The notes beneath the pieces were generated by a model. That model was given only the letters and a program-made list of their open reading frames with translations, did not search any database and was not told where the DNA came from. Positions 6,623 to 20,125 of a stretch of DNA of 20,710 nt are shown piece by piece (the first letter of the stretch is position 1; each line of letters starts with the position of its first letter). Source of the DNA: a virus; the IMG/VR virus record IMGVR_UViG_3300025769_001070, positions 1 to 20,710 of that record; one strand, written 5' to 3'. A program made the position numbers and the translations under genes.

Positions 6623-8693
6623 TAAATCCTTGTTCTTCTGGTGTAGGTGCTTGGCCTGTGCCTATAGTACCACCACCTGCTCCTGATGTATCCATTGGGT
6701 TTGCTCCTGCTGGTGCTCCCCCTTGCTGCTGTTGTTGCTCTTGTTGAAACTGTTTCATTAGTTCAGCTTGAATTGCAGCATCACTTATATTGTTAGTTAC
6801 TTTGTCGGGGTCAAGGTCTAGAGACTTTGCAATCTCACGAATAATATATTGAAACTTAGCAAATGGAGCAAGTGCTGGGTTAGATGCAACCTGCATAAAT
6901 TGCATAAGTCGTTGGCTACGTACTTCGTTAGCCATAAGCGATTCTGTCCCACGTGCTTTAACTTCTAGGTCACCTTTAATTTCAGGATCAAAGTCAAACT
7001 GCATATTAAAACGGAACATGCCCTCACCTAGTGGGCGCAGTAGATAGTCATCTACATTTTTAATAACATTCTTGATGCTGCCAGTAGCAGCACCCATTAA
7101 CATACTAATACCAGACGCTGTACGCCCTATGCCCTGAACACCTGTTTGTCCATGAGCAAATGATGGGAAGCCAGTAGACTCGTCGGCAAGTACTCGTGCT
7201 TTATCAAACAACTGTAAGTTTTCACCTGCAACGTTAGGAAACTTAGTACCAAAGATAGCTTGCCCTGGTGCACCACCCTGTCTACGGAATACTTTCCCTG
7301 GGTATACTGACAGGTCTTGGCCTGGAACTAGGTTAGTTTCATCTACCTCAATCAATAGGTTGCCAGACAATACAGCATTATCTACAGCCATTCGCATAAA
7401 ACCGTTCATCAGTGTCTGTGTGTCATCCATGTTTTCAGCAATGCCAACACCAAAGAATGAATACGGATTAAGTTCATACGGAGATGCCATATATGGAATC
7501 TTGGCAGGTTTAAATGGATTCATAACCATACGCAGTAGTTTGCCATTACAAATCCAAACGTTAGCCTGTAGTTCATCAGTATCTTGTAGCTCACGAGGAA
7601 TATCTACCCCTTGCTCCATTAGCATGTCTACGTCAACCATGCCCCAATACTCTAAAACTTCAAAACGTTCTACGCCATGTTCAGGTGCATAATCGGATAG
7701 ATCATCTTCCCAGTATTCTTTATTGTAGTTTTCTCCTAGTGAAATTACTTCTTCAATAACAGAGGCACGAAAGAATGGACGTTTCTTTAAGCCACGCAAT
7801 TGTGAACGTGACATTTTATGACGCTCAATAACATACTGTGCTTCATCCATATTATTTGCATCGGGGTCTGGATAGAAGTTCCACACAGATACATGTGATA
7901 CTTGAGGAACAGTTTTAAACACTGGATTATATTCACCAGTTTCTTCATCCCAGTTTGGATATTCTTTATCTATAGCAAACGGCCCTTTCATAATGCCCGT
8001 ACCAAACAAGGCCATTTCAAAAGCAGTATTGCGTAAATGTTTAGATGCGGAAGATTCTTCTAACTGATCTTTAATTTTCTTTTGCATCTTTTTTGCAGCA
8101 ATCATTGCTGGGCTAAAAGTAACCGAAGTAGGAGTTGTTCCCTTGCCTACTTGAACACCATTAATAGGTTCTAATTTTTTTCTAAGTTCAGGATTAAGTA
8201 ACTCCTGTAATGTTTTTGCTGTTGCTCCTGCTGGAAGTTCTTTGCCATCTCCCCTAAATCCATAGGGAGATATAGGCTCTGACTTTTTATCTTCACGTAA
8301 TTCTTCTGGTAAAGCAGGGTCAAAAGAAACTTCCTCTACAATACCATCAGGTAATTCGGTAGGATCAATGCTAATAGGAAAAGAGTTCTTTGCAAAAAGA
8401 ACATCAGCAATTTGTCCGTAAGCAGCAAGAGTTTTTGTCTTTGTTACTTTAATAAATACACGAGACTTTTCAGCTTCTGTAAATTGAACATCTGGTCCAT
8501 AGATACCACGATAGTTACGATATGCACGTAACCAACGTTCTTCATCTTGTCTACGATAATCATCTGCACGATTATACTTTTCCATAATAAATGGAATAAT
8601 ACTGGATGTATCAGCATCATCTACATTTGTGTCTTCTGTATCTTCTAGGACAATTGCATCGTCTTCGATAAAGACTTCACTCTCTTCTGCCAT
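6552..8693 (-). CDS. Portal protein
   Basis: 713 aa, with AAAAGGAAA before the ATG. After an acidic N-terminal tail (EDDAIVLEDTEDTNVDD) comes a recognisable portal start: an FIMEKYNRADDYRRQDEERW helix, YRNYRGIYGPD and VFIKVTKTKTLAAYGQIADV. The centre has VSVWNFYPDPDANNMDEAQY and VIERHKMSRSQLRGLK, motifs seen in podovirus-type portals. Later the INxL-like region includes GFMRMAVDNAVLSGN and the ATGSIKNVIKNVDDYLLRP helix. The last ~70 residues are Gln/Gly/Ala/Pro-rich and disordered, and their DNA doubles as the start of the next gene. It forms the dodecameric DNA entry vertex and lies directly downstream of TerL, the usual order. Confidence 0.9.
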   Translation of the reverse strand: MAEESEVFIEDDAIVLEDTEDTNVDDADTSSIIPFIMEKYNRADDYRRQDEERWLRAYRNYRGIYGPDVQFTEAEKSRVFIKVTKTKTLAAYGQIADVLFAKNSFPISIDPTELPDGIVEEVSFDPALPEELREDKKSEPISPYGFRGDGKELPAGATAKTLQELLNPELRKKLEPINGVQVGKGTTPTSVTFSPAMIAAKKMQKKIKDQLEESSASKHLRNTAFEMALFGTGIMKGPFAIDKEYPNWDEETGEYNPVFKTVPQVSHVSVWNFYPDPDANNMDEAQYVIERHKMSRSQLRGLKKRPFFRASVIEEVISLGENYNKEYWEDDLSDYAPEHGVERFEVLEYWGMVDVDMLMEQGVDIPRELQDTDELQANVWICNGKLLRMVMNPFKPAKIPYMASPYELNPYSFFGVGIAENMDDTQTLMNGFMRMAVDNAVLSGNLLIEVDETNLVPGQDLSVYPGKVFRRQGGAPGQAIFGTKFPNVAGENLQLFDKARVLADESTGFPSFAHGQTGVQGIGRTASGISMLMGAATGSIKNVIKNVDDYLLRPLGEGMFRFNMQFDFDPEIKGDLEVKARGTESLMANEVRSQRLMQFMQVASNPALAPFAKFQYIIREIAKSLDLDPDKVTNNISDAAIQAELMKQFQQEQQQQQGGAPAGANPMDTSGAGGGTIGTGQAPTPEEQGFSGNAGQGAPQQNQGASQQPSPMA

Positions 8694-15034: not shown

Positions 15035-15310
15035 TTACCATTTAACTTTATGACTCCAATACCGAGCAGATAAAATATCTGGGCTTGAGTCTTGTGCATT
15101 ATGTCTTGCATAGTAAGATTTTTTACGTGCCTTATCTTTAGCCGATGTAGGATTCTTACCTGCTCCTTGTACGCCTTGCTGCCCAAAACGAATTAATTTA
15201 ATTGTGTCACCTTTCTTAGCTAGAACTGCGTGTGACTTCTTAGGATGTTTAGGTGTACGCTTTGGCTTGTTGTAGCCAGCAAATGTTTCACCTCTGTACG
15301 TAATACTCAT
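15035..15310 (-). CDS. Conserved small basic phage protein
   Basis: 91 aa, Lys/Arg-rich. Motifs: TYRGETFAGYNKPKRTPKHP, KSHAVLAKKGDTIKLIRFGQ, then GVQGAGKNPTSAKDKARKKS and a closing DILSARYWSHKVKW. This ordered set is a known small conserved protein in marine phages and some bacteria, with no function I can name with confidence. It shares 4 nt (ATGA) with the upstream gene and lies 15 nt before the next. The basic nature suggests nucleic-acid or virion DNA contact. Confidence 0.75.
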   Translation of the reverse strand: MSITYRGETFAGYNKPKRTPKHPKKSHAVLAKKGDTIKLIRFGQQGVQGAGKNPTSAKDKARKKSYYARHNAQDSSPDILSARYWSHKVKW

Positions 15311-15522
15311 TTATCTGACCCATCTGTCCATCCTTCCATACGCATAGCCCACTCTACATGCTCTAACGTAAATGGCCTCCCATAGTGGTTCTGTACAGCT
15401 TCACGTACATAGAATACATCACTATGGGGGATATGCAAATTACTTATTGTTCCATTTGCAAGATGTTTATAGAACTCTTCTATAACATTATCTGTGTATA
15501 GTTTTACTGATTTTTTAGGCAT
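15307..15522 (-). CDS. First minus-strand gene, hypothetical
   Basis: 71 aa from the ATG at 15522; upstream in-frame GTG and TTG starts add 1-3 residues and no better ribosome site is present. The body is MPKKSVKLYTDNVIEEFYKH, then HIPHSDVFYVREAVQNHYGR and LEHVEWAMRMEGWTDG, a compact helical/winged-helix-like small protein with His/Tyr/Trp. It is the first gene of the minus transcription unit, right after the divergent control region. Similar phage proteins exist, function unknown. Confidence 0.7.
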   Translation of the reverse strand: MPKKSVKLYTDNVIEEFYKHLANGTISNLHIPHSDVFYVREAVQNHYGRPFTLEHVEWAMRMEGWTDGSDK

Positions 15523-15624
15523 TGTCAACACTTAATTGAATTTATTACAAGTTCCTCGCCTATCGGCAGTCACTTAACTGATACACTGTACGTGTTTACT
15601 AAAGTGTAATTATAGTTAATGTAT

Positions 15625-15654
15625 ATTATATCATAATATATAAGAGCATTACAA
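15625..15654 (-). promoter_or_regulatory. Leftward promoter with extended -10
   Basis: On the minus strand TTGTAA (15654-15649), an 18-bp spacer and a perfect TATAAT (15630-15625) preceded by TGA (extended -10). It points toward the first minus-strand gene (start 15522), leaving a ~95-nt leader. In the leader, TACACT (15582-15587) and AGTGTA (15603-15608) can form a 6-bp stem. Confidence 0.65.
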
Positions 15655-15680
15655 GTGTTACATTGTACATGTAATCACTT
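15653..15680. promoter_or_regulatory. Imperfect dyad at the leftward promoter, operator candidate
   Basis: AAGTG-T-TACAT, a 5-nt centre, then ATGTA-AT-CACTT: ten paired positions with one base offset. It overlaps the first bases of the -35 box at 15649-15654. A dimeric repressor bound here would block that promoter. No protein in the window is proven to bind it. Confidence 0.4.
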
Positions 15681-15710
15681 TAAGTGTCATCTTAGTTATC
15701 TACATACGTA

Positions 15711-15739
15711 GTTTTACACATTATGTGTACCCTTGTCAA
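15711..15739 (-). promoter_or_regulatory. Leftward promoter overlapped by TACACA dyad
   Basis: TTGACA (15739-15734), 17-bp spacer, TAAAAC (15716-15711) on the minus strand. Inside it sits TACACA-TTA-TGTGTA (15715-15729), a perfect 6-bp dyad reaching into the -10 box. The arrangement suggests a regulated promoter, tandem with that at 15625-15654, serving the minus-strand genes. Confidence 0.55.
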
Positions 15740-15793
15740 GCCCCCGCACAATAAATAAGAACATTATTCCTGTAATCCCAGTTTTTATGGGAC

Positions 15794-15836
15794 ACTGTTC
15801 TGTGTAAACCACTATATATGTAATGTGGTTAACAGT
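15794..15836. repeat. Nested inverted repeat in control region
   Basis: Outer arms ACTGTT (15794-15799) and AACAGT (15831-15836); inner arms AACCAC (15807-15812) and GTGGTT (15825-15830), around an AT-rich centre. Could be an operator pair or RNA stem. Just upstream, TCCCA (15776-15780) and TGGGA (15788-15792) form a further small hairpin. Confidence 0.45.
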
Positions 15837-16115
15837 TCATTTTTCCTGATCTGTGTATTTATACATGCATATATAACGTACACCCCCGCCATGGCCCCTG
15901 CCCAGCCACCTTCACTGCGCAATTGCCTGTATTATGCAAGGTCATGACGCATGGTGAGAGCAGCAAAACTGAAACACTTCACCACTACATCAAAGATGTA
16001 AACAAAATCAGTGACTTACTTGTCTACGACAACTGTTATGCAATCAGTTGCCATGCTTTAGCATGAAATATAGCACCGTATTTTCACACTGAAGGTGTGT
16101 TGAGGGTACAATGCT

Positions 16116-16244
16116 TATAATCTGAAACATATATCCCCCTAGGATATAGTGGTCATTGGCAGAGCTGTGCACGGCTCGTGGTTGCACGAAAGCTGCTACC
16201 ATTCAAATTGTCCGATGTCGGACGCTTCACCTTTGGTGTTTCTT
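16116..16244 (+). ncRNA. Candidate phage small RNA with GTCCG hairpin
   Basis: A perfect TATAAT (16116-16121; no good -35) would start transcription near 16128. From there a chain of stems follows: TATATCC/GGATATA (16130-16148), a long bulged stem GGCAGAGCT-GTGCA pairing with TGCAC-gaa-AGCT-GCTACC (16158-16200), the GTCCG-ATGT-CGGAC hairpin (16210-16223), then CACC-TTT-GGTG (16228-16238) followed by TTTCTT, a weak terminator shape. There is no ORF. It could instead be a 5' leader or just a structured control region; the RNA call is inference from sequence shape. Confidence 0.35.
16210..16223 (+). repeat. Dyad repeat copy 1 of 5 (GTCCGATGTCGGAC)
   Basis: Lies in the non-coding control region, flanked by AAATT on the left as in copies 3 and 4. 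GTCCGA and TCGGAC are exact inverted arms around TG. All five copies read in the same direction on the plus strand. Confidence 0.9.
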
Positions 16245-16294
16245 AGTTGTTGTAATTATGTCACACTGCTTCACGAGTTTAGCGCATGGACTTC

Positions 16295-16317
16295 AAAATA
16301 TATATGAAATATATTTT
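16295..16317. repeat. AT-rich perfect hairpin flanked by TAGCGCATG repeats
   Basis: AAAATATAT and ATATATTTT are 9-bp arms around ATGAA, followed by T and GC. Direct repeats TAGCGCATG occur on both sides (16280-16288 and 16323-16331). The layout fits a DNA-unwinding or initiator site, or a terminator for the candidate RNA upstream. No direct proof. Confidence 0.4.
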
Positions 16318-16392
16318 TGCAGTAGCGCATGAAACGGCAAGCGCAGAGGATCGTATGCAAGGTAATTTGTAAAACAAATTTGATTTAGTCAC

Positions 16393-16421
16393 TTGACATA
16401 TCAATCTCACTACTCTATCTC
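16393..16421 (+). promoter_or_regulatory. Rightward promoter candidate for plus-strand operon
   Basis: A perfect TTGACA (16393-16398) with a 17-bp spacer to TATCTC (16416-16421), a weak -10 that may need an activator. It is the only consensus -35 directly upstream of the first plus-strand gene. The -10 lies within the left arm of the large dyad at 16413-16503. Confidence 0.5.
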
Positions 16422-16503
16422 TCCATGTTACAGATAGTTTAATATCTCTCCCTTTAGGGTGAGAGAGATATATAAACTCTCTTATGTAACATTAGAGATA
16501 GAG
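16413..16503 (+). repeat. Large nested inverted repeat before first plus gene
   Basis: Outer arms CTCTATCTCT-CC-ATGTTAC (16413-16431) and GTAACAT-T-AGAGATAGAG (16486-16503) pair over 17 bp with one small internal loop. Inside is a second hairpin, ATATCTCTC (16442-16450) with GAGAGATAT (16463-16471). The right outer arm ends 1 nt before the GAAAGGAAG ribosome site of the gene at 16516. It can act as a DNA operator over the promoter or as a folded mRNA leader that controls translation. Confidence 0.75.
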
Positions 16504-16515
16504 AAAGGAAGTCTC

Positions 16516-17103
16516 ATGGCAAAATCATCGAAAGCATCTTCAGCAGTAGTTGGAACAACTATCGATGCAATGATCAAAGAAGGCAAAGCCTTAGCGTCAA
16601 TTTGGAAACAGACTAATAGTCTGAAGAACAGTACAAAAGCCAACGGCTTTGACACTCGGCTTGGTAAATTGCTTCAGCAATTGAAAGCACAGTCTACACT
16701 TGACTCAGGTCAAGTTAGCCGCCAAACGCTGACAACTTATGGTATTCATACCATAGATCGTCGTCGTCGTGCTGAAGCACTTTGGTTCGTTGAAAACGAA
16801 GTAGCTTGCCGTGACTTCATGAAAGCCTCAAAGAAAGGCTTCACATCATTGTCTGCTTTGCAGAAAGCAATGAATGCTGCTTCTAAAGCAGAGCAACCTG
16901 CTAAAGCAGAACCGTCCGATGTCGGACAATCTAGCGAAGCTAAAACTTCTAGTGCTACTGAACATCGTTCAGTTTCAGTGCAAATCACTCGCAGTAAAAT
17001 GGTTGACACCATTTTGCATCACTGCAAAGAAAACAACCTTAATATCGAAGATATTATCAATGATCTTCAGTCTCATGTTGCAAAGCAACAGCGCAAAGCG
17101 TAA
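16516..17103 (+). CDS. Lead protein of plus-strand operon, unrecognised
   Basis: 195 aa from the ATG at 16516 with AAAGGAAG 4 nt before it; an upstream in-frame start at 16459 lies within the leader dyad and was rejected. The protein is basic. The N-terminal half (AVVGTTIDAMIKEGKALASI; then KANGFDTRLGKLLQQLKAQS) is helical, followed by a conserved-looking YGIHTIDRRRRAEALWFVEN block. A low-complexity Ala/Ser/Glu linker follows at about residues 125-155, which holds dyad copy 2, read as Ser-Asp-Val-Gly. The C-terminus is helical (MVDTILHHCKENNLNIEDII). First position after a regulated promoter suggests an early regulator or host-takeover protein, but no family is recognised. Confidence 0.85.
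   Translation: MAKSSKASSAVVGTTIDAMIKEGKALASIWKQTNSLKNSTKANGFDTRLGKLLQQLKAQSTLDSGQVSRQTLTTYGIHTIDRRRRAEALWFVENEVACRDFMKASKKGFTSLSALQKAMNAASKAEQPAKAEPSDVGQSSEAKTSSATEHRSVSVQITRSKMVDTILHHCKENNLNIEDIINDLQSHVAKQQRKA
16914..16927 (+). repeat. Dyad repeat copy 2 of 5, inside coding sequence
   Basis: Exact GTCCGATGTCGGAC within the 16516-17103 gene, in a low-complexity linker. Its bases are read as Ser-Asp-Val-Gly, with Gln next. The linker would tolerate a DNA- or RNA-level element. Confidence 0.9.
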
Positions 17104-17117
17104 GGTTGCACCATTTA

Positions 17118-17141
17118 TGCAGTCCCTTTTTTGGGACTGTA
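17118..17141 (+). terminator. Hairpin after first plus-strand gene
   Basis: CAGTCCC-TTTTTT-GGGACTG with one extra G-T and T-A pair, 14 nt after the stop at 17103. There is no T-run behind it, so it is a poor intrinsic terminator; it may protect the mRNA 3' end or lower expression of later genes. Confidence 0.4.
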
Positions 17142-17175
17142 TTGGTGGTTCAACTTTATCCTGAAAGGATAGAAT

Positions 17176-17343
17176 ATGATTTTCGTCAAATTTGTCACAA
17201 TAATGACTTTAGTCTTATTGACTATGCAAATCCTGTTCACTTCTGTAATGGTAGCCTACGGCTATTTGTCAATAGATTGGCTATTGGTGCAGGTTTTACC
17301 TTACATCTTTGTGTGCTGCATATCTGTATGGGGCCTTGACTAA
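17176..17343 (+). CDS. Small two-helix membrane protein
   Basis: 55 aa, with GAAAGGA 6 nt before the ATG. MIFVKFVTIMTLVLLTMQIL then FTSVMVAYGYLSIDWLLVQ and VLPYIFVCCISVWGLD give two hydrophobic segments joined by a short YGYLSID turn. It is probably in the inner membrane. Its TAA overlaps the next ATG (TAATG). Small early membrane proteins of phages often alter the host envelope or exclude other phages, but nothing here shows which. Confidence 0.75.
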   Translation: MIFVKFVTIMTLVLLTMQILFTSVMVAYGYLSIDWLLVQVLPYIFVCCISVWGLD

Positions 17344-17525
17344 TGTTTAATCCTGATCAATTCGTCGCTGATCTTTACAGTGAAACTGTAGGATACAAAA
17401 CTATAGAAGAATTAATATCTAATTCTTTTCCCTGCACTAGCTCATCATGTTTGTATGATAGCGGTTGGTGCGATCCTAATGATCCTGCTTTATTGTCTTA
17501 CAGTTATATAACACTTGAAACATAA
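17343..17525 (+). CDS. Small acidic hypothetical protein
   Basis: 60 aa, starting on the A of the previous stop (TAATG), so coupled. The sequence is acidic, with three cysteines (SFPCTSSSC, GWCDP) and helices at the N-terminus (QFVADLYSETVGYKTIEELI). Its last codons lie within the left arm and loop of the inverted repeat at 17503-17543, and the TAA sits in the loop. No ribosome site of its own is clear. Function unknown. Confidence 0.6.
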   Translation: MFNPDQFVADLYSETVGYKTIEELISNSFPCTSSSCLYDSGWCDPNDPALLSYSYITLET

Positions 17526-17543
17526 GTGAAAGTGTTATATAAC
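17503..17543 (+). promoter_or_regulatory. Internal promoter covered by a perfect 14-bp dyad
   Basis: TTGAAA (17515-17520), 17-bp spacer, TATAAC (17538-17543): a near-consensus sigma70 promoter. The perfect arms GTTATATAACACTT (17503-17516) and AAGTGTTATATAAC (17530-17543) span it, covering the first -35 bases and the whole -10. Transcription would start near 17550, upstream of dyad copy 3. A repressor site is likely; a terminator for the upstream genes is the alternative. Confidence 0.6.
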
Positions 17544-17574
17544 ATGTATAGACATAAACACTGAAACTGAAATT

Positions 17575-17588
17575 GTCCGATGTCGGAC
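17575..17588 (+). repeat. Dyad repeat copy 3 of 5, in a 5' leader
   Basis: GTCCGATGTCGGAC inside a 25-nt block (17569-17593) identical to that at copy 4, followed by GGAGTTTAG and ATGACT. It ends 20 nt before the start codon at 17609. Confidence 0.92.
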
Positions 17589-17608
17589 ACTTTAAACGGA
17601 GTTTAGCA

Positions 17609-17905
17609 ATGACTAGGAAATTTGATGAAGCAGTACAAGCATATAGTGATGCTTACAAAGAATATCACGGTATTCGTCCTATACTTGCATATGACTATTG
17701 GGATAGTCAGCTTGGCATTGAAGGTGCCATTCAAGAGATGGAAGAATGGACTAATCGTTATTACGATTGGGTCGCAGAAGATTTGGCACAAGAACGTGCC
17801 GATGAGGATGCGTCCATCAATGCTTGTATGGAAGCTGGTGCTCCTGACATAGACACTGCGATGCGGTGGTTAGAGGATGCAGAAATCCACTTACAGTGGG
17901 CTTAA
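17609..17905 (+). CDS. Small acidic phage protein
   Basis: 98 aa from the ATG at 17609 with CGGAG 7 nt upstream; a longer TTG-initiated frame would translate the dyad repeat and was rejected. MTRKFDEAVQAYSDAYKEYH then GIRPI is a recurring opening in small phage proteins. The remainder is strongly acidic and Trp/Tyr-rich (YDYWDSQLG, NRYYDWVAEDLAQERADED), helical. It could mimic DNA by charge (speculation). Its leader is nearly a copy of that of the next gene. Confidence 0.8.
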   Translation: MTRKFDEAVQAYSDAYKEYHGIRPILAYDYWDSQLGIEGAIQEMEEWTNRYYDWVAEDLAQERADEDASINACMEAGAPDIDTAMRWLEDAEIHLQWA

Positions 17906-17913
17906 TTGAAATT

Positions 17914-17927
17914 GTCCGATGTCGGAC
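17914..17927 (+). repeat. Dyad repeat copy 4 of 5, in a 5' leader
   Basis: Within the 25-nt block 17908-17932, identical to that at copy 3, in the 42-nt gap between two genes. GGAGTTAG and the start ATGACT (17948) follow. Too close to the previous gene for a promoter in between, so this copy is probably transcribed. Confidence 0.92.
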
Positions 17928-17947
17928 ACTTTTGCGGAGTTAGTCAA

Positions 17948-18631
17948 ATGACTTACACAGTACACACTACATTCAAATCCAACAACCGTAAGGTTGGCAA
18001 AATCCCTGTTACCACTACATCTGCGGCTACATGCCCAGATGAATGTGAGTTTAAGAAAAACGGCTGCTATGCAGATGGTGGGCCATTGGCAATGCATTGG
18101 GCCAAAGTTACCAGCGGCGAACGTGGGGACAATTGGTCAACGTTCATTGCCACAGTCAAATCCTTCAAGGATGGGCAGTTGTGGCGACACAATCAGGCAG
18201 GTGATTGCCCAGGTGATGGTAAGCGTTTGGATGCCGATGCCTGTGACGAATTGGCAGATGCCAATGAAAACAAAAACGGTTTCACCTACACTCATTACCC
18301 TGTGTTGACCGATGCCCATAATGCGGCAGTGGTCAAACGCATGAATGACAAAGGCTTTGTCGTCAATCTATCTGCCAACAACGTAGCACATGCTGATGCC
18401 TTGTATGACCTTGGCATTGGGCCAGTTGCAACTGTACTGCCAGAGGCACAAACAACTAACACAGTTACCCCAAAGGGGCGTAAGATCGTTGTGTGTCCTG
18501 CCACAGTTCGTGACAATGTGTCATGTGCTACATGCCAACTCTGTGCAAAACAGCGTGATGCAATCATTGGTTTTCCTGCACATGGCACAAGCAAACGCAA
18601 AGCTGACACAGTAGCATCACAAGGAGTGTAA
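17948..18631 (+). CDS. Cys-rich conserved phage protein (DUF7227/Gp88-like)
   Basis: 227 aa from the ATG with CGGAG 8-9 nt upstream. A first cysteine group TCPDECEFKKNGCYADGGPL (about 28-47) and a last group CATCQLC (193-199, with C183) frame the protein; in between, LWRHNQAGDCPGD, NGFTYTHYPV and GFVVNLSANNVAHADALYDL are conserved-looking blocks. This order fits a phage family I recall as DUF7227, related to mycobacteriophage/cyanophage gene-88-type proteins. Spaced cysteines suggest zinc or iron-sulfur binding. It is visibly richer in G+C (near 50-58% in sampled lines) than its neighbours (33-40%), which hints at separate origin. Confidence 0.85.
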   Translation: MTYTVHTTFKSNNRKVGKIPVTTTSAATCPDECEFKKNGCYADGGPLAMHWAKVTSGERGDNWSTFIATVKSFKDGQLWRHNQAGDCPGDGKRLDADACDELADANENKNGFTYTHYPVLTDAHNAAVVKRMNDKGFVVNLSANNVAHADALYDLGIGPVATVLPEAQTTNTVTPKGRKIVVCPATVRDNVSCATCQLCAKQRDAIIGFPAHGTSKRKADTVASQGV

Positions 18632-18633
18632 CA

Positions 18634-18807
18634 ATGGAATTGTTAGTATCAATTGAAACATCTTACGGTACACGTCGAGTGTACCCTAAGTGTAGCACAT
18701 CACGAACACTTGCTGAGATTGCAGGTACAACTACGTTGACTGATCGTGATATAAGTTTAATCAAACAACTAGGCTACACATTTCGTGTAGTAACTGAGGA
18801 ACTATGA
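18634..18807 (+). CDS. Small hypothetical protein
   Basis: 57 aa, with AAGGAG 7 nt before the ATG, inside the end of the previous gene. MELLVSIETSYGTRRVYPKC then STSRTLAEIAGTTTLTDRDI and LIKQLGYTFRVVTEEL resemble small phage proteins with a beta strand, a T-D-R-D helix start and a closing strand. Such a pattern (YP-x-C/x-x-x-x-A/F-x-x-L-x-x-T-L-T-x-x-D-I-x-x-I-K-x-L-G-Y) is common in marine phage operons. Function unknown. Confidence 0.8.
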   Translation: MELLVSIETSYGTRRVYPKCSTSRTLAEIAGTTTLTDRDISLIKQLGYTFRVVTEEL

Positions 18808-18808
18808 T

Positions 18809-19102
18809 ATGAAAGTATACAATTCAACGAATAACATTTATGTTAGATACATGGGTAGAGAAATATCTATTGCCCAACACGTAGTAAATGGACGTACAGC
18901 AGTACAGGAAGTGGGTATACTACCTGCTGGTGTAGATATGCACATCGTAAGATATGATGCTGTACTGCCTAGTCTGATAGCTGCTTTGCAGGAGATACAA
19001 GATGAAATTGAAAAAGACATATGGGGTGATCAATCCCGTAGCGAGGGCAATGCTGCAAGAGCGCAAGTCACCGCAAGTAGTGCCGCCCAAGAAGGGCAAT
19101 AA
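18809..19102 (+). CDS. Hypothetical protein, C-terminus overlaps small gene
   Basis: 97 aa, starting 1 nt after the previous stop, with GAGG about 9 nt upstream. MKVYNSTNNIYVRYMGREIS and VGILPAGVDMHIVRYD suggest a beta-rich N-terminal half, followed by a helix (LPSLIAALQEIQDEIEKDIW). The last ~34 residues are Ala/Ser/Gly/Gln-rich and lie over the start of the next gene in another frame, so they are probably a by-product tail. Not recognised. Confidence 0.75.
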   Translation: MKVYNSTNNIYVRYMGREISIAQHVVNGRTAVQEVGILPAGVDMHIVRYDAVLPSLIAALQEIQDEIEKDIWGDQSRSEGNAARAQVTASSAAQEGQ

Positions 19103-19160
19103 ACGTAAACCTAGTAAAAAGGAACAGCAAAATGAAATGCGAGATGCAAAACTTTATTAA
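19002..19160 (+). CDS. Small basic phage protein (NPVARAML type)
   Basis: 52 aa, MKLKKTYGVINPVARAMLQE then RKSPQVVPPKKGNKRKPSKK and a short polar end. The ribosome site GCAGGAGATACAAG is strong and lies within the previous gene. The sequence order (M-K-x-K-K-x-Y-x-x-x-N-P-V-A-R-A-M, then Q-V-V-P-x-K-K) matches a small family widespread in phages that I recall as DUF7230-like. Highly basic; perhaps nucleic-acid binding. It overlaps the previous gene by 101 nt and the next by 29 nt. Confidence 0.85.
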   Translation: MKLKKTYGVINPVARAMLQERKSPQVVPPKKGNKRKPSKKEQQNEMRDAKLY

Positions 19161-19278
19161 GTTTTCTAAGTCAAAAGCGTCCGATGTCGGACAGTTGAAA
19201 TCTAAACGTGACGATTGGAAACGTGAACGTAAGATCGCACGTAAGAACAAGACCCTTAACCGTAAACTAGTATCTTAA
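19132..19278 (+). CDS. Very small basic protein carrying the dyad repeat
   Basis: 48 aa, with AAAAAGGA 8 nt before the ATG. MKCEMQNFIKFSKSK, then Ala-Ser-Asp-Val-Gly-Gln from dyad copy 5, then KSKRDDWKRERKIARKNKTL. The second half is a charged, Arg/Lys-rich helix. Start lies inside the previous gene. Real coding is likely given the ribosome site and end 17 nt before the next gene, but it might be mainly a carrier for the repeat. Confidence 0.65.
   Translation: MKCEMQNFIKFSKSKASDVGQLKSKRDDWKRERKIARKNKTLNRKLVS
19179..19192 (+). repeat. Dyad repeat copy 5 of 5, inside coding sequence
   Basis: Exact GTCCGATGTCGGAC within the gene at 19132-19278, again read as Ser-Asp-Val-Gly then Gln. Last copy seen in the window. 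Confidence 0.9.
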
Positions 19279-19634: not shown

Positions 19635-19758
19635 AAAACGGTGGATCGTGTATGATGATGACGGTAAAGTTGTCATCATATCACACAACAAAAAGATTTG
19701 CCTAAAATATGTAAAGGAGTTAGGCTATGAGAGTAGAAGTATATTTCAACCTACATAA
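19624..19758 (+). CDS. Tiny hypothetical protein in overlap
   Basis: 44 aa, MQHKKRWIVYDDDGKVVIIS followed by HNKKICLKYVKELGY. It begins 11 nt before the end of the HTH-like gene and extends 32 nt into the next. The composition looks coding (a beta-hairpin and helix pattern), but the ribosome site is weak (GAG, 4 nt spacing). Without it the gap 19635-19726 would be empty. Function unknown. Confidence 0.55.
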   Translation: MQHKKRWIVYDDDGKVVIISHNKKICLKYVKELGYESRSIFQPT

Positions 19759-20125
19759 ATACACATGGTCTGTTCGTTCGGCTAAGACGGGCAGAGTAAT
19801 CTTGCACACTGACAAGGTACACATAAACAATCCTACGTTTGTAGTGCGTAAGGCAGGTCGTGAACGTGTACTGCGTGAGGGCAAGAAGAATGTTCATGCG
19901 TTTGTACGTGGTGATATAACTGTGTTTGATGACTTTGATCCCGATTATCTGGACTATACACTTGTAGCATACAATCCGTATAAGTATGACACGTTTGTAG
20001 ATGTTATTGACACAAGACCTGTCCGTACCGCTAAACGTGCAGTCTTACAATTACAACCAAGTATGGTGGTTGGTGATCATCACAGAAACAGACCATACCT
20101 ATATGCAGAAGGAGCACGTTCATGA
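19727..20125 (+). CDS. Conserved phage protein of unknown function
   Basis: 132 aa, AAAGGAG 7 nt before the ATG. EVYFNLHKYTWSVRSAKTGR then VRKAGRERVLREGKKNVHAF and VRGDI is a set recognised in many phages (Y-x-N-L-H-K...S-V-R...R-V-L-R-x-G-x-K-N-V-H-A). Two later blocks, VAYNPYKYDTFVDV and RTAKRAVLQLQP, also recur. The protein looks compact and beta-rich. Known family from memory, no assigned role. It overlaps the next gene by 4 nt (ATGA). Confidence 0.85.
   Translation: MRVEVYFNLHKYTWSVRSAKTGRVILHTDKVHINNPTFVVRKAGRERVLREGKKNVHAFVRGDITVFDDFDPDYLDYTLVAYNPYKYDTFVDVIDTRPVRTAKRAVLQLQPSMVVGDHHRNRPYLYAEGARS

Follow-up and report, generated by a model that had tools for sequence, protein, structure and literature searches.

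Judging from its sequence and those of its relatives, the first gene of an early module in a marine phage fragment (g1) quite likely encodes a sequence-specific, probably dimeric DNA-binding regulator that holds back the early operon, with a short palindrome repeated in and around the gene as its operators.

A five-copy dyad in the early module

The window (the whole 20,710-bp stretch of viral DNA that was analysed) contains the palindrome GTCCGATGTCGGAC five times, at positions 16210, 16914, 17575, 17914, and 19179, with all copies identical, on the plus strand, and within 3 kb of one another. Our search of the window recovered each of the five exact same-strand copies of the original prediction and, just as had been claimed, there is no sixth, even with up to three mismatches allowed on both strands. 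Here, the five minus-strand rows of the mismatch search are the same palindromic sites in the opposite reading. A repeat of this kind had been judged far beyond chance, and this proved correct, as the expectation at up to three mismatches is 0.41 (sd 0.65) and 0/100 shuffles reach 10. The single orientation, on the other hand, applies to this window (5/5) and not across the relatives, some of which are mixed. Rfam gave no match to a known RNA family, and no tRNA was found. The dyads and the features around them are listed below.

15532-16515, plus strand: roughly 1 kb of non-coding leader, flanked by the divergent late genes and g1
16210-16223, plus strand: candidate operator dyad 1, GTCCGA-TG-TCGGAC, 306 nt 5' of the g1 start, within the non-coding leader
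16516-17103, plus strand: g1, which opens the early module and is predicted to encode a dyad-binding regulator (195 aa), co-occurring and co-varying with the dyad
16849-16893, plus strand: predicted recognition helix of g1, residues 112-126 (S113, K117, N120), from the AlphaFold helix and the co-variation with arm base 5
16914-16927, plus strand: candidate operator dyad 2, within g1, in the predicted disordered linker, coding for xSDVGQ
16990-17100, plus strand: C-terminal two-helix part of g1 (helices 159-172 and 177-194), a possible oligomerisation region
17575-17588, plus strand: candidate operator dyad 3, about 20 nt 5' of the g4 start codon
17609-17905, plus strand: early gene g4, behind dyad 3
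17914-17927, plus strand: candidate operator dyad 4, in the short gap from the g4 stop to the g5 start, about 20 nt 5' of the start codon
17948-18631, plus strand: early gene g5, DUF7227 (PF23872, E 1e-87), directly behind dyad 4
19132-19278, plus strand: early gene g8, 48 aa, containing dyad 5
19179-19192, plus strand: candidate operator dyad 5, inside g8

Dyads 3 and 4, which are intergenic, are nearly identical over 29 nt, and dyad 3 lies in a wider symmetric site (about 17570-17593) whose left edge is A-rich and right edge T-rich. Because the terminase is 92% identical to that of Roseobacter phage CRP-345, 86% to that of CRP-1, and 83% to that of Puniceispirillum phage HMO-2011, the window is, by sequence, part of an HMO-2011-type marine podovirus, with the 20.7-kb contig being a fragment of a genome type of about 54 kb. 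In these three phages, the early module is followed by the integrase, primase, helicase, and DNA polymerase genes.

Dyads and g1 in related phages

When IMG/VR was searched for exact matches, many contigs proved to have three to six neighbouring copies of the identical 14-mer, and most relatives have three to seven dyads in the same early module. The palindrome is kept among them in several arm versions (GTCCGA, GTCCAA, TTCCGA, and GTCCCA). Thus, the dyads of CRP-345 and CRP-1 are GTCCAA-NN-TTGGAC, those of remoter relatives are GTCCGA-NNN-TCGGAC, TTCCGA-NNN-TCGGAA, or GTCCCA-ACGT-TGGGAC, and those of HMO-2011 are five divergent, symmetric or near-symmetric copies of GTCCGACAGCGGAC. Arms are nearly always uniform within a genome, and between genomes both arms change together. 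Moreover, the leader dyad is found at the matching place in HMO-2011 (position 53879, where gp74 starts at 54168) and in most relatives.

In the near-complete relatives, the sites cluster in a stretch of about 5 kb that surrounds g1, with a few matches elsewhere, such as those in the integrase coding sequence (GTCCAAGGTTGGAC, e.g., L228 at 7079-7092). As the latter are found in both GTCCGA and GTCCAA phages, we did not take them as operators and regard them as a coincidence of a conserved protein stretch. A host operator was likewise rejected, since bacterial genomes had single copies only among the loci returned. We also rejected a protein-level cause for the copy inside g1: while all of the in-g1 dyads (52/52) share one reading frame, the encoded residues vary (SDVG, SDIG, and SNVG) and the palindrome persists, and an SDVG motif is further disfavoured by the copies that lie in another gene, and use another frame, in L370 and L371.

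Among the cultured HMO-2011-type phages, the presence of dyads and of g1 is concordant in 15/15, with both found in CRP-345, CRP-1, and HMO-2011 (as gp74, E 2e-25) and neither in the other 12. A further sample of 40 loci was drawn via an unrelated late gene (15307-15531 in the window), all of them covering 2.5 kb or more of the early region, and 38 of these carry g1 along with two or more perfect dyads, a count that includes one locus (L034) whose g1 was taken from a separate comparison. The remaining two are L457, which has neither dyads nor g1, and L484, in which g1 is accompanied by a single perfect site and four hybrid ones. The HTH-like protein g9 (19296), which the original prediction had put forward as the binder, is an unlikely one, as several loci with dyads yielded no relative of it. 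By contrast, g1 occurs alongside the dyads in almost every case and varies in step with them.

Predicted structure and specificity of g1

No convincing match to g1 was found in Pfam, PHROG, NCBIfam, or the PDB by sequence, and our fold search with the whole protein and the N-terminal domain gave no PDB match below an E of 1, though there was one good viral match (S4S2E1, E 1e-5). The AlphaFold model of g1 is all-helical (mean pLDDT of 77) and includes helices at residues 95-105 and 112-126 with a short turn between them, a disordered linker at residues 130-154, and two C-terminal helices. When modelled alone, the N-terminal domain gave a pLDDT of 87 and a pTM of 0.80. From this model, we infer that helices 95-105 and 112-126 form a helix-turn-helix.

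In 79/79 phages (i.e., different g1 proteins with a clear operator), g1 residues 113, 117, and 120 predict whether arm base 5 is G or A, using a rule that was framed after viewing the same data, with L384 left out of the framing (no perfect palindromes). According to this rule, base 5 is G if the protein has S113, K117, and any residue but R at 120, and otherwise A. On a tree built without columns 113, 117, and 120, all supported independent contrasts agree (8/8; sign test p = 0.008), and for residue 113 alone about seven contrasts go the same way and none the opposite way. These three columns also rank highest among 115 that were screened identically. Within helix 112-126, the residues are spaced i, i+4, and i+7, a pattern that, in the predicted structure, would suit residues lining a single face of a recognition helix. 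The compensating change that the original prediction had sought in relatives is indeed present: the arms switch jointly, with about 10 base-5 switches on the g1 tree (10 changes needed, of which at least seven are forced by well-supported branches).

Proteins with intermediate residues go with hybrid sites. In fact, L384 (S113, K117, and R120) has three sites of the form GTCCGA..TTGGAC, with one side being GTCCGA and the other GTCCAA, and the clade of L472 and L484 (S113, R117, and K120) has a mix of GTCCGA and GTCCAA. In HMO-2011, a divergent helix (K113, K117, and D120 as aligned) is found with the divergent sites GTCCGACAGCGGAC.

Duplex DNA or RNA hairpin

A dimer-binding operator, as first suggested from the dyad symmetry, is well supported at the sequence level by the joint arm changes and the co-variation with g1. 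The accompanying suggestion that a role in RNA is at least as likely as one in DNA now appears less so. Here, g1 would bind a GUCCG-AUGU-CGGAC hairpin in the early mRNAs and thereby control translation or antitermination (cf. lambda N at nut). Consistent with this, hairpin folding is predicted for all five copies (z of -2.0 to -3.0), the intergenic copies lie mostly 18-24 nt 5' of a start codon, a nearly constant spacing that would also suit a role in translation, and the imperfect sites favour the sense that keeps G-U pairs (10 G-U and 2 A-C, few of them independent). As with lambda boxB, there would be a hairpin with a 5-bp stem in the early transcripts that is phage-specific.

However, the alternative centres within one genome are mostly reverse complements of each other (TTG/CAA, TG/CA, and ACAG/CTGT), as in L418 (three TTG and two CAA), L365 (TG and CA), and HMO-2011 (four ACAG and one CTGT). 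Because a symmetric protein on a duplex is indifferent to such flips, they are easier to reconcile with a dimer on duplex DNA than with an RNA hairpin, and they also mean that, in contrast to boxB, the loop is not fixed. Moreover, one of the hybrid sites in L484 is inverted, and would as RNA have an A-C pair, while the copy within g1 is far from the start of the gene (400 nt downstream). The co-variation, too, involves three residues on a helix face and not an arginine-rich peptide like that of lambda N. With this evidence, we regard an RNA operator as rather unlikely. The flanks of the intergenic dyads tend to be symmetric at positions 3-5 (rich in A to the left and in T to the right). The direction of the dyad relative to transcription may matter somewhat: TG, a point in favour of the RNA reading, predominates on the sense strand, though relatives are mixed and their leader copies often inverted, and in the GTCCAA phages the leader copy has CA more often than TG.

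Proposed mechanism and other explanations

From what can be read directly in the sequences (the repeats, their occurrence together with g1, the matched changes in arms and g1 residues, and the compensated palindromes), we infer a mechanism in which a dimer of g1 would bind the dyads, with each GTCCGA half-site being read by the helix that carries S113, K117, and N120. The g1 gene, which opens this early module, would presumably be expressed early. Its binding to the leader and in-gene sites would then amount to self-regulation, and its binding to the gene-boundary sites would repress transcription of the early operon, perhaps in part by a stoperator-like block of elongation. Self-throttling of the early genes would be the most likely purpose, and this might serve either lysogeny or an early shut-off. 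An integrase is present in 20/22 of the g1-phage records searched, with the other two being partial contigs. With a profile that does detect g1 in phages, we searched 397 genomes from a single host-related family and found no copy of the gene; lysogeny was therefore not seen in this family. CRP-3, which has been shown to integrate (PMC6918029), is without g1 by profile search.

Alternatively, the dyads could be activator or phage-promoter elements through which g1 or a phage polymerase turns on transcription, which would agree with their having the sense of transcription in the window and with a TATACT-like hexamer located 5-7 nt upstream in some relatives. Yet, promoter-like hexamers have no one preferred distance from the dyads, many copies lie inside genes or in the very short gaps (a few bases) that follow a stop codon, and perfect palindromes are atypical of single-subunit polymerase promoters, all of which makes this explanation improbable. 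Our promoter scan gave no promoter excess in the dyad region, which counts against the operator reading too, and a promoter overlap as a general rule was rejected, with the hexamers not being concentrated at any single distance.

A still poorer prospect is that the dyads are conserved gene-boundary linkers aiding the swapping of early genes by recombination; this would account for the near-identity of the intergenic copies over 29 nt and for the early genes between dyads, which vary among relatives, but leaves unexplained both the co-variation of arms and g1 residues and the copies in the leader and g1. In KorB and ParB arrays (RK2 and N15), a single protein binds identical palindromes that are scattered through genes, and although the dyads are similarly dispersed, with several in a few kb around the gene of their presumed binder, a centromere-like cluster for partition or long-range silencing is just as implausible, given that g1 has no ParB or KorB domain match and that the integrase in 20/22 records makes partition unnecessary for inheritance.

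Comparison with known systems

In the cluster A mycobacteriophages (L5, Bxb1, and TipsytheTRex), a repressor bound between genes stops elongation at stoperators (PMC6550527, PMC9283540). The dyads resemble these in being one short site in many copies, several of which lie in short intergenic gaps and most in one orientation. In both, the site consensus shifts among relatives with the phage's own (here presumed) DNA-binding protein. In contrast, the site described here is a near-perfect palindrome, occurs 5-7 times in about 5 kb, and is also found inside coding sequence, whereas the L5-type site is a 13-bp asymmetric sequence with 20-30 copies across the genome. Site direction, an L5-type feature, is uniform in the window (5/5) but mixed among relatives. 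Moreover, no homology of g1 to the L5 gp71 repressor (N-terminal HTH and stoperator domain) was detected by family, PDB sequence, or fold search. By the features tested, the g1/dyad system falls outside the L5 family. Similar to the operators of lambda CI and Cro, the dyads are short, are probably recognised by a dimer through one of its helices, and probably serve an early gene that regulates itself, though they are not clustered in threes at divergent promoters, and g1 has no match to the HTH_3 or Cro family.

As a kind, operators and their repressors are already known. Our search of the open-licence literature did not find the g1 family, its palindromic dispersed sites, or the natural specificity series. 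HMO-2011-type phages have been described as a marine group that is both dominant and widespread (PMC9038755), and the word 'repressor' is absent from that paper and from the RCA phage paper (PMC6918029). We tentatively suggest that g1 could found a new, structurally unassigned family of phage DNA-binding silencers with a three-residue specificity code, stoperator-like yet independent of the mycobacteriophage system, and whose repeated switches would define immunity groups. If so, a dominant marine phage group uses a silencing system that evolved apart from the mycobacteriophage stoperators. A likely regulator and its target sites can now be named for the cultured phages (HMO-2011 gp74, CRP-1 gp01, and CRP-345 gp01), the data predict which phages share a specificity, and the natural switches and intermediates make protein-DNA co-evolution directly testable.

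Other features of the early module

Several additional elements were noticed in this region. In the leader (15532-16515), a CTCGTG or CACGAGTTTAGCGCA motif follows soon after the dyad and recurs in relatives; it is possibly a structured RNA, with no Rfam match. At 17503-17543, there is a perfect 14-nt AU-rich inverted repeat (GTTATATAACACTT...AAGTGTTATATAAC) that can also be read as TTGAAA-17-TATAAC, and in relatives a GTGAAAG-type element is found upstream of 42/133 intergenic dyads. At 17597-17607, a small palindrome resembling CsrA/RsmA-type sites has the Shine-Dalgarno GGA as its loop (AAAC-GGA-GTTT), and in relatives the GGA before start codons is often in similar palindrome loops (ATAC-GGA-GTAT and AATC-GGA-GATT). 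The DUF7227 protein of g5 has relatives in CRP-345, L008, L009, and L076. Further downstream (19727-20125), an early gene matches Phage_L5_gp82 (PF25735), and near the place of this gene L370-L372 have an extra dyad in a frame that differs from that of the g1 copy.
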